Positions 18,310-62,462 of a stretch of DNA of 64,000 nt are shown here, one piece after another. The notes under the pieces are model-generated. The model saw only the letters and a program-made list of their open reading frames with translations. It ran no database searches and was not told where the DNA came from. The translations under genes were made by a program, and so were the position numbers. This stretch comes from Anaerolineales bacterium (GTDB taxonomy: Bacteria; Chloroflexota; Anaerolineae; Anaerolineales; UBA11858). Positions within the stretch are counted from its first letter, which is position 1. Every line of letters begins with the position of its first letter. The stretch covers positions 282,874 to 346,873 of the forward strand of contig JANQED010000132.1 of the NCBI GenBank assembly GCA_028278545.1. Reading direction: 5' to 3'.

Positions 18310-18495
18310 GGATGGCAGATACCCCACCATGCCGTGTGCAACTAAGTTTTGAACCTGCTTTCGCAGGTATTGGCCTTCATCGGTAGATCCGCCTTGGCCG
18401 AAGCCTATCGCGTCACTAACGTCATATCAGACCAGTTATCAGTAAGTGTTGGCTCAAAACGCATGGGCTGCATCACGAACACAGCAGGGTATGAT
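18310..18495 (+). ncRNA. ssrS: Candidate 6S RNA
   Basis: The 447-base gap between the CBM lipoprotein gene and asnS has no gene but folds as a long rod. Nested pairings are exact: ATACCC 18319-18324 with 18487-18492, CCATGC 18327-18332 with 18461-18466, GTTTTGA 18346-18352 with TCAAAAC 18454-18460, and a small hairpin ACCTGC-TTTC-GCAGGT at 18353-18368. The segment GTGCAACTAAGTTTTGAACC followed by a short hairpin resembles what I recall of Firmicutes 6S RNA. The length of about 185 bases also fits. Strand and ends are not certain, because the terminator at 18273 faces the minus strand. A different structured RNA is possible. Confidence 0.45.
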
Positions 18496-18560: not shown

Positions 18561-19904
18561 TCACGGATACACGCGATTGATCGTGCGCGGGAAGGCGATA
18601 GTTTCGCGGATATGGTGGATGCCGCATATCCATGAAACCGTGCGTTCAACGCCCAGGCCAAAGCCGCCGTGAGGGACGCTGCCAAAGCGACGTAGCTCCA
18701 TATACCATTGATAAGCTTCTTCAGGAAGCTCGTGCTCGTGAATGCGTTGCAGCAGCATCTCTGGGTCTGAGATGCGCTCGCTGCCGCCGATGATCTCCCC
18801 ATATCCTTCAGGGGCCAGGAGATCGACGCTTTTACATACCTCAGGCCGATCGGGCCAGGGCTCCATGTAGAACGCCTTCACCTGCGTGGGGTATCCGTAG
18901 ACAAAGACCGGTTTCTCGAATTGCTGGGTCAGGGCGGTTTCATGAGGTGAGCCGAAATCTCCCCCCCATTCGAATGCCAGCAGTCTCTTTTCTTCAGGGT
19001 CCTCGGTCTTATCACGGATCTCGGCGATCAGCTCGACCGCCTCGTCGTAGGAAATGCGCGGGAAGGGTGGAGTCACTTTTTCCAGGGCAGAGGTATCCCG
19101 CTCTAATGAAGCCAGTTCCGGAGCACGGTCTTTCAAAGTGCGCTGGATGATATGAGAGACAAACTGTTCCTCGATCTCCATCAACTGATCCAGATCACAG
19201 AAAGCTATCTCTGGCTCAACCATCCAGAACTCCGTGAGGTGGCGACGGGTCTTGGATTTCTCCGCCCGGAACGTAGGGCCAAAACAGTAGACTTTCTTGA
19301 AGGCATAGATATTGGCCTCGTTGTACAGTTGCCCCGTCTGGGCCAGGTACGCAGTTCCCTCATCGAAGTAAGGAGTCCCGAAAAGGGTCGTCGTTCCCTC
19401 GGCAGCCGCGGGGGTCAGGATCGGGGTATCCATGTTGATATAGCCGTTGGAATCCAGCCACTCCCGGATGGCGCTGATCACCGTCGAACGGACGCGCAGG
19501 ATCGCCCACTGGCTGGGCATGCGCAACCAGAGGTGACGGTTCTCCAGCGCGAAATCCGTGCCATGCTCTTTGAGGGACATGGGGTAATCCTCGTCCGCGA
19601 TCTGGACGATATCGATCCCGGTGATGCCGATCTCGAAGCCGCCAGGGATGCCAGGGGCGCGGCTATCAGCCCGAACCAGGCCGGTGATTTCCACCGCCGA
19701 TTCTTGCGTCAAGCGCACGACCTCTTCGAAGATCTCTTCTGGAAGATCGTTCTTGAAGGCCACGCATTGTACAAAGCCATAGCCATCCCGGACGAGCAGG
19801 AACACCAGTTTCCCCTTGCGGGTACGGTTATAAATCCAGCCCTGTATGGTAACTTCTTGATCGATATAATCGCCAATCTGCTCAATGCGGATTTCTCTTG
19901 CCAT
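18561..19904 (-). CDS. asnS: Asparaginyl-tRNA synthetase
   Basis: A 447-residue class IIb synthetase that charges tRNA-Asn with asparagine. The N-terminal OB-fold anticodon-binding domain (1-110) starts MAREIRIEQIG; class II motif 2 is FRAEKSKTRRHLTEFWMVEPE region and motif 3 is GGFGLGVERTVSWICG. The segment AQTGQLYNEA has glycine where archaeal-type AspRS has proline, favouring AsnRS. Start at 19904 chosen because AGGAG lies 5 bases upstream; an ATG eight codons earlier has none. It lies 110 bases downstream of aspS in the same direction and is probably in the same attenuator-controlled unit, although a weak TACAAT box in the gap could give it a second promoter. Confidence 0.93.
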   Translation of the reverse strand: MAREIRIEQIGDYIDQEVTIQGWIYNRTRKGKLVFLLVRDGYGFVQCVAFKNDLPEEIFEEVVRLTQESAVEITGLVRADSRAPGIPGGFEIGITGIDIVQIADEDYPMSLKEHGTDFALENRHLWLRMPSQWAILRVRSTVISAIREWLDSNGYINMDTPILTPAAAEGTTTLFGTPYFDEGTAYLAQTGQLYNEANIYAFKKVYCFGPTFRAEKSKTRRHLTEFWMVEPEIAFCDLDQLMEIEEQFVSHIIQRTLKDRAPELASLERDTSALEKVTPPFPRISYDEAVELIAEIRDKTEDPEEKRLLAFEWGGDFGSPHETALTQQFEKPVFVYGYPTQVKAFYMEPWPDRPEVCKSVDLLAPEGYGEIIGGSERISDPEMLLQRIHEHELPEEAYQWYMELRRFGSVPHGGFGLGVERTVSWICGIHHIRETIAFPRTINRVYP

Positions 19905-20014: not shown

Positions 20015-21781
20015 TCAGGCGCGCACATCGATGTGCAGTTCTTTGAGCTGCTGCTGCTCCACCGGGGAGGGCGCGCTGGCCATCACATCACGCGCATTCT
20101 GGTTCTTGGGGAAGGCGATCACCTCGCGGATATTGGGCTCTCCGGCCAGGATCATGCAGATGCGGTCGATGCCCGGGGCGATGCCGCCATGAGGCGGCGT
20201 GCCATACTCGAAGGCTTCCAACATATGGCCGAAGCGCTCCTGGGCGACTTCTTTTTCCAGGCCAATCAACTCGAATACCTGGGCCTGCAACTGGCGGTCA
20301 TGGATACGGATCGAGCCGCCGCCGACTTCATAACCATTCAGCACCATATCGTACTGCTGCCCTCGGGCCTCGCCGGGGTTGGTGTCCAGGAAAACGATGT
20401 CCTCCGGCATTGGCGAGGTGAAGAGATGGTGGCTGGGGTCCCAGCTCTCTTCTTCGGCGTTGTACATCACAAAGGGGAAGTCTATCACCCAGCAGAAGCC
20501 CAACACATCGGGCTTGCGCAAACCCAAACGCTCCCCCAGCAATTCACGCAAACGACCCAAACTCTCGAAAGTAACTTCAGGGCTGGCAGCCACAAACAGC
20601 AGCAAGTCACCGGGTTCTGCCTCGAAGCGCATGATAATCTCTTTCAAGGTACCCTCTGAAAGATACTTGGCAAAGGAAGATCGTTGTTCACCATCCGAGG
20701 TCAGGGCGACATATGCCAAACCCTTAGCCCCATACTGGCTGACAAACTCAGTCAGCTCCTCGATCTGTTTGCGGCTGTAATCGCCCAGTCCTTGAGCCTT
20801 GATCCCGCGCACGTGACCACCGCTTTCGGCAACGCTCTCAAAAACGCGGAAACCGCTCTGAGCAGCCAGGTCCGTGAAATCGACAAGCTCCATGCCAAAG
20901 CGGATGTCCGGGTTATCTTTGCCAAACCGGGCCATGACTTCTTCGTAAGTAAAGCGCGGCCAGGGCGATTGGAGCAATTTCATTTCGGGCACGATCTCGG
21001 CGACCAGCTTGGTGAACAAATCTTCCGTCACATTCATCACATCTTCGCGCTCCACGAAGGACATCTCCAGGTCAAGCTGGGTAAATTCAGGTTGACGGTC
21101 GCCGCGCTGGTCTTCATCCCGGAAACAGCGCGCAATCTGGAAATACCGCTCCACGCCAGCCACCATCAATAACTGCTTGAGTTGTTGAGGCGATTGAGGC
21201 AGAGCGTAGAACTCCCCGGGGTGGAGCCGTGAAGGGACCAGATAGTCACGCGCACCCTCAGGGGTGGTCTTGAACAAGATCGGGGTTTCAACTTCCAAAA
21301 ATCCATGCTGGTCCAGATAATCGCGGATGAACTTGACCACCTGATGGCGCAACTCCAAGTTCCGGCGCATGCGTTCTTTGCGCAAATCAAGGTAGCGATA
21401 GCGCAGCCGTACCTGCTCGTCGATCTCTTCTTCTTTGTTGATATAGATAGGAGGCGTCTTGGCAGGATTAAGGATCTTCACCTCTTGAATCTCAACTTCG
21501 ATCTCTCCCGTGGATATTTCTGGGTTGACCATCCCTACCGGGCGCTTGTGCACCCGGCCTTTCACCTGGATGACCCACTCAGAACGGACAGGCTCCATGT
21601 CTTTATGCGCCTCGGGATACAGGTCGGCGTTGGTGACCATTTGAACCACGCCAAAACGGTCGCGCAGATCGATGAAAGTCACGCCGCCATGGTCACGACG
21701 GCGGTGCACCCAACCAGCCAGGGTGACTTCTTGTTCGGCATGTTTTGCGGTCAACTCACCGCAAGTATGAGATTTGTACAT
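20015..21781 (-). CDS. aspS: Aspartyl-tRNA synthetase (bacterial type)
   Basis: A 588-residue class IIb synthetase with the bacterial layout: OB-fold anticodon domain (1-105), catalytic core with motif 2 [18 protein letters not shown], the bacterial GAD insertion (about 290-420), and motif 3 [16 protein letters not shown]. It attaches aspartate to tRNA-Asp. Residues H31 and G83 are those reported for non-discriminating enzymes such as the Pseudomonas aeruginosa one, which can also mischarge tRNA-Asn; yet asnS is next door. The ATG at 21781 has GGAGG 5 bases upstream. Expression is predicted to be set by the Asp/Asn leader-peptide attenuator 200 bases upstream. Confidence 0.96.
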
Positions 21782-21975: not shown

Positions 21976-22078
21976 AAAAAAAATCGCCCTTTGCTCGAAG
22001 CATCGGGCGATCCGGTTCGAAATGATCTGGTTCAATGATCTGACAGCCTGCACCGTACCGCCCGACGTTGATCGTCGG
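21976..22078 (-). promoter_or_regulatory. Transcription attenuator of the aspS-asnS operon
   Basis: Read on the minus strand, four segments can pair in competing ways. Strand 1 (CCGACG, 22078-22073) pairs with strand 2 (CGTCGG, 22067-22062). Strand 2 (TCGGGCG, 22065-22059) can instead pair with strand 3 (CGCCCGA, 22009-22003). Strand 3 (ATCGCCC, 22011-22005) pairs with strand 4 (GGGCGAT, 21989-21983), which is followed by a run of T to 21976: a rho-independent terminator. Strand 1 lies inside codons 17-19 of the leader peptide. A ribosome stalled at the Asn/Asp codons would cover strand 1, free strand 2 to pair with 3, and prevent termination. This is the architecture of trp- and his-type attenuators. 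Confidence 0.82.
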
Positions 22079-22127
22079 TGGCATTAGCATCATTATTGTC
22101 GTTATTCAGCAGGTAAGCCAGAATCAT
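22032..22127 (-). CDS. Asp/Asn-rich leader peptide of the aspS attenuator
   Basis: A 31-residue reading frame, ATG at 22127 and TGA at 22034-22032, too short for routine gene calling. Residues 8-19 read NNDNNDANATDD: nine of twelve are Asn or Asp, with five AAT/AAC and four GAT/GAC codons. This is the control-codon cluster expected for a peptide that senses charged tRNA-Asn and tRNA-Asp, the products of the two synthetases encoded downstream. An AAGG lies nine bases before the ATG and an extended -10 box 28 bases upstream. The peptide itself is not expected to have a function after translation. No homologue is recalled. Confidence 0.8.
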   Translation of the reverse strand: MILAYLLNNDNNDANATDDQRRAVRCRLSDH

Positions 22128-22486
22128 CGCTCAAAACCTTGAGAATTTCACCGGATTATATCACAGGAATTTTACACCTGGGACGAAATCCCCTCCACAG
22201 AACTTGCATTTTAGTTCCTTGCAAACGGCTGAGAGGATGAGAGCCAGTTTTCGGCCTACAGTGGATTACCCAATGACAGAAATTTGCTGAAACGCGATTT
22301 TAGCTCTAGAGACCAAGCGGTAATGTAATTTATACTCCTGTTGTCACATTACATCTGTTACCCCCTCTTTGTGATGGATATCACTACTAAGAGCATCCTC
22401 CGCTATGTTATATTCTTCACAGATAAACGTATACGCATAGGCGCATATCTCAATAGCTACAGCGCCCTACCACAAGGATTACAACC
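22128..22486. other. Divergent promoter region between the aspS leader and arsR
   Basis: This 359-base gap holds no gene. On the minus side an extended -10 box lies at 22155-22160 (see separate entry). On the plus side TG-T-TATATT at 22406-22414 is a candidate extended -10 for the ArsR/sulfur operon, and the following GTATACGCATAGGCGCATAT stretch (22429-22448) is a partly symmetric region where an ArsR-type repressor could bind. The middle of the gap shows nothing else I can support. Confidence 0.4.
22155..22163 (-). promoter_or_regulatory. Extended -10 promoter of the aspS leader transcript
   Basis: On the minus strand TG-A-TATAAT, an extended -10 element with a perfect hexamer at 22160-22155, lies 28 bases before the leader-peptide ATG. 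No good -35 is seen, which is usual for extended -10 promoters. Transcription would start near 22148, giving a 5' leader of about 20 bases before the peptide. Confidence 0.6.
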
Positions 22487-62032: not shown

Positions 62033-62340
62033 AAAAAACCTTCGCCGCTCAGGGACGAAGGGCCTCTTAGTCTCCGTGGTACCACCCTGATTGCGCTGAA
62101 CGTACTGTCTGCCACGTTCACACGCCTCTCAGTTTCGCTGTAACGGGCTTACCCGTCGCGGTTACTGTGAGTTCACCGACGATTCCTGCCTATTTACGGC
62201 AGCAGGCGAGTTTGGTCCTCATCGTCCCTTGAAATCGCTTTCGCAGGACTGTGCTCTGCGGGCACCAATGCCAGGGCTTGCACCCGGTGACCCCGGCTCT
62301 CTGGCAGATGACCTATTACTCCTGATGTGTTGTTCTATCT
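62033..62340 (-). promoter_or_regulatory. T-box riboswitch upstream of leuS
   Basis: Minus-strand leader with the conserved T-box AGGGTGGTACCACGG (62088-62074), stem I features (AGAGAGCC and GGGTGCAAGCC near 62300-62270), and a terminator (CCTTCG-loop-CGAAGG at 62061-62039, followed by TTTTTTG to 62033). Uncharged tRNA-Leu binding would favour the antiterminator and leuS transcription. Leu specificity is from the downstream gene; two CTC triplets (62210-62208 and 62171-62169) are candidates for the specifier and I cannot choose between them with certainty, though the first is at the better distance. Confidence 0.93.
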
Positions 62341-62389
62341 CCGAGACCCGGCTTCTTTAGCGAAGGAAAACCGGGATTCTCGTTGTAGG

Positions 62390-62462
62390 TGGACCCAGTG
62401 GGATTCGAACCCACGACCTTCTCAATGCCATTGAGACGCGCTCCCAGCTGCGCCATGGGCCC
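62390..62462 (-). tRNA. tRNA-Ala(GGC)
   Basis: A 73-base cloverleaf. The acceptor stem pairs GGGCCCA with TGGGTCC, the discriminator is A, the anticodon loop is ATGGCAT with anticodon GGC read as alanine (codons GCC/GCU), and the T arm is GTGGG-TTCGAAT-CCCAC. CCA is not encoded. It lies just upstream of the leuS T-box on the same strand; a hairpin (62341-62382) between them may end the tRNA transcript. Confidence 0.95.

Follow-up and report, generated by a model that had tools for sequence, protein, structure and literature searches.

The trp, his, thr, ilv and leu attenuators of Proteobacteria combine a leader ORF carrying control codons with an intrinsic terminator and a competing antiterminator, and in classical attenuators the outcome is set by a race between ribosome and polymerase (PMC1183508). 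Synthetase genes can also be placed under codons for their own amino acid, as at pheST in gamma-Proteobacteria and trpS2 and leuS in Streptomyces (PMC1262725), and at hisS paralogues in Firmicutes (PMC2965389). The literature we searched describes leader-peptide attenuation in Proteobacteria, Actinobacteria and some Firmicutes, but no case specific to Asp or Asn. T-box leaders likewise sense tRNA charging upstream of synthetase genes, but they bind the tRNA directly and without translation. One of these, the two-codon T-box of clostridial gatCAB, reportedly detects two amidation-pathway tRNAs with a single leader.

Here we describe a leader upstream of aspS in a 64,000-nucleotide stretch (the window) of an Anaerolineae metagenome-assembled genome, whose nearest named relatives are Anaerolineales bins. 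Like the proteobacterial attenuators, it has a leader ORF with control codons, a competing antiterminator and an intrinsic terminator, and within the window's family of aspS leaders the 1:2 protector is present as well. It differs from them in controlling an aminoacyl-tRNA synthetase gene, in having two control amino acids, and in its phylum. The synthetase attenuators named above each read one amino acid, whereas this leader appears to read two, and the enzyme looks non-discriminating. It also differs from the clostridial gatCAB leader, a tRNA-binding RNA, in being a putatively translated ORF. We are confident that the aspS leader is a ribosome-mediated transcription attenuator with Asn and Asp as control amino acids, serving aspS and, in the window, probably an aspS-asnS operon. 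This assignment comes from sequence analysis without expression data, and translation of the leader, sensing of tRNA charging and read-through are inferred.

Results

The leader lies on the minus strand between a promoter and aspS (Table 1). The first-pass annotation of this DNA had proposed an extended -10 promoter, a 31-codon ORF with nine Asn or Asp residues in codons 8-19, three mutually exclusive stems and a U-tract terminator, and all of these are present. Stem 1:2 has 6 pairs (CCGACG with CGUCGG), stem 2:3 has up to 11 including G-U pairs (CGUCGGGCGGU with GAUCGCCCGAUG), and stem 3:4 is the terminator hairpin (GAUCGCCC with GGGCGAUU, -17.4 kcal/mol), which together with its eight-U tract spans 22012-21976, between the leader ORF and aspS. 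Antiterminator 2:3 and terminator 3:4 are mutually exclusive because segment 3 belongs to both. The 1:2 protector overlaps the control codons in the window leader and in most of its family.

Genes beyond the promoter (22487 onward) are on the opposite strand and the intergenic region is divergent. The terminator thus cannot serve an upstream minus-strand gene, and acts on the aspS transcript. The gap between aspS and asnS has no promoter-like match and no minus-strand terminator-like match. Our automatic terminator scan misses the leader hairpin because of the scan's loop rule. Elsewhere in the window, a T-box that had been proposed before leuS was borne out by a significant Rfam match, although its score is below the Rfam gathering score of 93, as befits a divergent T-box.

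Table 1. Features of the aspS leader, its operon and other RNAs in the window
Feature	Position	Strand	Evidence or remark
Extended -10 promoter, TGATATAAT	22155-22163	-	Sequence
AAGG, possible Shine-Dalgarno, 9 nt 5' of leader ATG	22137-22140	-	Sequence; weak
Leader ORF, 31 codons, MILAYLLNNDNNDANATDDQRRAVRCRLSDH	22032-22127	-	N/D-rich homologues before aspS in many Anaerolineae
Control codons 8-19, NNDNNDANATDD	22071-22106	-	9 N/D among 12 codons
Segment 1, CCGACG, protector arm, partner of segment 2	22073-22078	-	Sequence and compensatory change
Segment 2, CGUCGGGCGGU, antiterminator 5' strand	22057-22067	-	Folding, alignment pairing
Segment 3, GAUCGCCCGAUG, common to antiterminator and terminator	22001-22012	-	Folding, alignment pairing
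Segment 4, GGGCGAUU, terminator 3' strand	21982-21989	-	Folding
Terminator U tract, 8 T	21976-21983	-	Sequence
aspS, aspartyl-tRNA synthetase, residues H31 and G83 (non-discriminating type)	20015-21781	-	
asnS, asparaginyl-tRNA synthetase, 113 nt 3' of aspS	18561-19901	-	
6S RNA, directly 3' of asnS	18317-18493	-	RF00013, 64 bits
T-box before leuS	62048-62215	-	RF00230, 46.9 bits, E 5e-9
tRNA-Ala (GGC), just upstream of leuS T-box	62388-62462	-	

The attenuator proposal would have been refuted had the Asn/Asp codons and competing stems not been conserved in relatives, and both are. Starting with the genus and moving outward, we gathered the regions upstream of aspS and scored them for a leader ORF with a nearby terminator, calling a leader when at least 5 residues of an 8-residue window ending near the terminator were Asn or Asp. 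The threshold is our own choice; relaxing it brings in distant families whose runs are shorter, and tightening it drops them. Within the class Anaerolineae, 53 of 131 distinct regions have an Asn/Asp leader with a terminator; 40 reach 6/8, and 25 reach 7 or 8 of 8. The same call (at least 5/8 with a terminator) was met by only 1 of the 131 regions when reverse-complemented and by none of 655 dinucleotide shuffles, and leader plus terminator were absent from all 43 aspS regions of other Chloroflexota classes. Leaders extend beyond the window's genus to numerous families of the order and to two other families of the class, with runs such as ANNNNNDNDDN (L135), NNDNNNNND (L062), NNNNEDNN (L026) and IDDNDN (L091). 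These are presence counts across related genomes and not independent events, and our alignment controls remove kinship only in part.

About 60% of the sampled Anaerolineae regions have no leader scoring at least 5/8. Some of these are true absences, and at least one is a miss: genome G001 (L007) was first taken as a case of leader loss, which was rejected when the leader was found 468 nt upstream of aspS. In this genome, of the same genus as the window, a repeated sequence lies in the 468-nt gap between leader and aspS (L234, G001:C81). A covariance model built from the aspS leaders was run on 151 genomes of the order and has matches in 66 of them, usually next to aspS. Matches in G322, G267, G307, G022, G031 and G333 were set aside; these resemble unremarkable terminators or coding sequence and have no N/D leader.

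The best 8-residue windows hold 246 Asn and 93 Asp, about 2.6 to 1, followed by Ala and Leu at about 20 each. Spacing is also conserved among the Anaerolineae leaders: the end of the run mostly lies 55-60 nt from the terminator arm and the stop codon mostly 17-24 nt from it. In a 43-sequence alignment, the 2:3 pairs are held in 81.5% of cells; sliding the partner by 1-3 columns lowers this to 28-44%. Altered on both sides are 22 cells of the helix, compared with 10.9 in shuffles. Synonymous recoding of the leaders gives a weaker 2:3 stem (mean z -1.58; 29 of 60 leaders at or below the 5% level), which argues for selection on the RNA beyond the peptide. Applied to the window leader by itself, the test gives no more than a hint, as 7% of recodings are equally strong. 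Three loci of the window's family (L037, L010 and L038) carry a compensatory change in stem 1:2, from CCGACG/CGTCGG to CCGATG/CATCGG, made through interchangeable Asp codons. The four-segment form with the 1:2 protector is clearest in that family and the protector is not established for others, whereas the 2:3/3:4 switch is general.

Of 60 leader starts, 47 have the promoter motif TGNTAYAAT in the 80 nt upstream, and 18 kb of flanking background contains none. An SD-like motif precedes only 9 of the 60. Many aspS leader ORFs start at the predicted transcription start or a few bases from it; the window's own gap is 27 nt. Leaderless genes have been reported in Chloroflexi (PMC3160421).

Folding the window leader with and without a ribosome block, as the first-pass annotation had suggested, did not separate the two states at full length, where the terminator dominates, and was informative only for transcripts ending before segment 4. 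In our occlusion model of such transcripts, a ribosome with its A site at codons 8-18 leaves the 2:3 stem a probability of 0.61-1.00, and a ribosome at codons 19-28 covers segment 2 and reduces it to 0.05-0.22. Ribosome positions that permit 2:3 thus match the control run. Many relatives show the same contrast without a clear 1:2 stem, and several are weak or mixed. Equilibrium folding of full-length leaders usually favours the terminator whatever the ribosome position, and the occlusion model of the shorter transcripts also permits 2:3 with the ribosome at the stop codon. The switch must therefore rely on timing, that is, on a race between ribosome and polymerase.

A related leader stands before a different gene. 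In genome G176 (L225 / L237; G176:C12:70168-70297), an Asn-only leader, MFDYSFANFNNNNNNNNAVLRGVGRSASNLQT, is followed by an antiterminator and terminator of the same kind and by asnA, the gene for asparagine synthetase (PF03590, E 1.6e-105). Its run is eight consecutive Asn without Asp, and the locus is a strong extra match of the covariance model. A different gene thus comes with different control codons, which is what an attenuator would lead one to expect. This is a single case, and the other asnA that we found (G308) has no evident leader.

Discussion

Our model follows the classical scheme. Transcription would start just after 22155. With ample charged tRNA, the ribosome would pass the Asn/Asp run promptly and cover segment 2 while the polymerase makes segments 3 and 4, so that the 3:4 terminator forms and transcription ends before aspS. 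Leaders of the window's family would reinforce termination through the 1:2 hairpin, which holds segment 2. If Asn-tRNA or Asp-tRNA were short, the ribosome would wait in the run, masking segment 1 and leaving segment 2 free; 2:3 would then form first, pre-empt the terminator and allow aspS-asnS to be transcribed. The attenuator thus very probably turns aspS up when Asn- or Asp-loaded tRNA is scarce. We have no charging data, and the regulation, like the efficiency of termination, is inferred.

It is possible, though we think it doubtful, that the leader senses mainly Asn-tRNA, the Asp codons being either tolerated substitutes (GAY differs from AAY by a single base) or structural elements of the RNA. 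The excess of Asn over Asp in the best windows (246 to 93) points that way, as do the eight Asn without Asp in the asnA leader and the overlap of the last two Asp codons of the window leader with segment 1. Yet almost all aspS leaders include one Asp or more, and several are Asp-rich (DDDND in L142, IDDNDN in L091). The asnA leader itself also cuts the other way: the sole leader before an Asn-only gene has no Asp in its run, which suggests that Asp codons are selected at aspS. We consider it very unlikely that the terminator is a constitutive premature one, or one under another factor, and that the N/D ORF is no sensor. Equilibrium folding of the full leader, which usually favours the terminator, would fit this idea, but it leaves unexplained why the in-frame N/D run, the antiterminator complementarity and the spacing of run, stop codon and terminator are all conserved, and why an Asn-only version precedes asnA.

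Codon choice within the run raises the idea of a sensor for queuosine modification, as tRNA-Asn, -Asp, -His and -Tyr share Q34 and a bias to U-ending codons could be exploited. AAT is indeed strongly over-used, with a share of 62.5% in leader runs against 35.5% in aspS genes (odds ratio 3.0, p 4e-13). The runs, however, have almost no His or Tyr codons (1 His and no Tyr in the best windows) and the downstream genes are Asp/Asn-specific, leaving this idea only a slender chance. U-ending codons also keep the run unstructured, and the AAT bias may serve that end or tune sensitivity. We give scarcely any credence to nascent-peptide arrest, with the ribosome stalled by the peptide as such. A regulated gene preceded by a short, conserved leader ORF would be expected there too, but Asn and Asp interchange freely, the length and position of the run vary, flanking residues differ among families, and segment 2 of the RNA accounts for the conservation of the C-terminal residues. 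Finally, the T-box before leuS in the same window might suggest a T-box or other tRNA-binding riboswitch at aspS. This we regard as practically ruled out: an Rfam scan assigned the aspS leader to no family, T-boxes included, its matches being at chance level only (E up to 5), whereas a similar scan detects the leuS T-box.

Control of asnS, also part of the original proposal, is credible in loci like that of the window, in which asnS immediately follows aspS. The leader is also present in 9 sampled genomes in which no asnS was found, several of them incomplete assemblies, and aspS is thus the constant partner. Leader and asnS are associated in our sample (27/36 vs 9/31, p 2e-4), a result that is confounded by relatedness and on which we do not rely. 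In G030 and G103, aspS is followed on its own strand by gatC, a gatA-type amidase gene, gatB and asnS, in a span of about 10 kb that includes other genes between them.

The enzyme itself offers an explanation for the mixed codons. The window AspRS aligns with Pseudomonas aeruginosa AspRS, which is annotated Asp/Asn, and sampled leader-bearing AspRS share with it H31 (40/40) and G83 (39/40). We take these residues to be marks of a non-discriminating AspRS. GatB is encoded in the window's genome. An AspRS with these residues, together with GatB, would account for a mixed Asn/Asp sensor, in that aspS probably feeds both Asp-tRNA and Asn-tRNA; its relaxed specificity, meaning aspartylation of tRNA-Asn, is inferred from sequence alone. 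In Bdellovibrio, charging of tRNA-Asn by an AspRS alongside AsnRS and GatCAB has been demonstrated (PMC4206432). In genomes without asnS, Asn-tRNA would depend on AspRS and GatCAB. The earlier idea that the control codons match the products of the downstream synthetases is thereby refined: the mixture likely stems from a non-discriminating AspRS and not only from the presence of both synthetases.

The mechanism is a known one, and it is the specificity, the genes and the phylum for which we found no earlier report. No leader-peptide attenuator for Asp or Asn, or from Anaerolineae or Chloroflexota, appeared in the literature searched, with subscription literature mostly outside that search; we made no survey beyond Chloroflexota, and priority is not proven. 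The aspS attenuator extends the picture to a further phylum and a further specificity, and it brings in another regulatory logic: a single sensor reads two amino acids, and one enzyme probably charges the tRNAs of both. Through it one can ask how the direct and indirect routes to Asn-tRNA are balanced in cells that have both. It also predicts the genes that should respond to a lack of Asn across this large class, most of which is uncultured.

We lean somewhat towards a broader picture, a peptide-attenuator regulon of Anaerolineae with Asn/Asp leaders at aspS (acting through aspS on gatCAB and asnS), an Asn-only leader at asnA and Thr-rich leaders at an aminotransferase gene, described below. 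Many of the aspS leader ORFs would be leaderless, and they would jointly sense both products of a non-discriminating AspRS. To our knowledge, a leaderless mode of start has not been described for classical attenuators.

In Anaerolineales, a Thr-rich leader ORF and a terminator frequently lie ahead of an uncharacterised gene for a class-I-type PLP aminotransferase (L239-L243, L247, L249, L250, L260 and L263; for example MPNMLSSYQNPTTTTTSTMNTTRLLLRVGR in L243). This looks like a separate Thr attenuator. Related aminotransferase genes in one family have leaders in which Thr and Asn alternate (L256 and L258).
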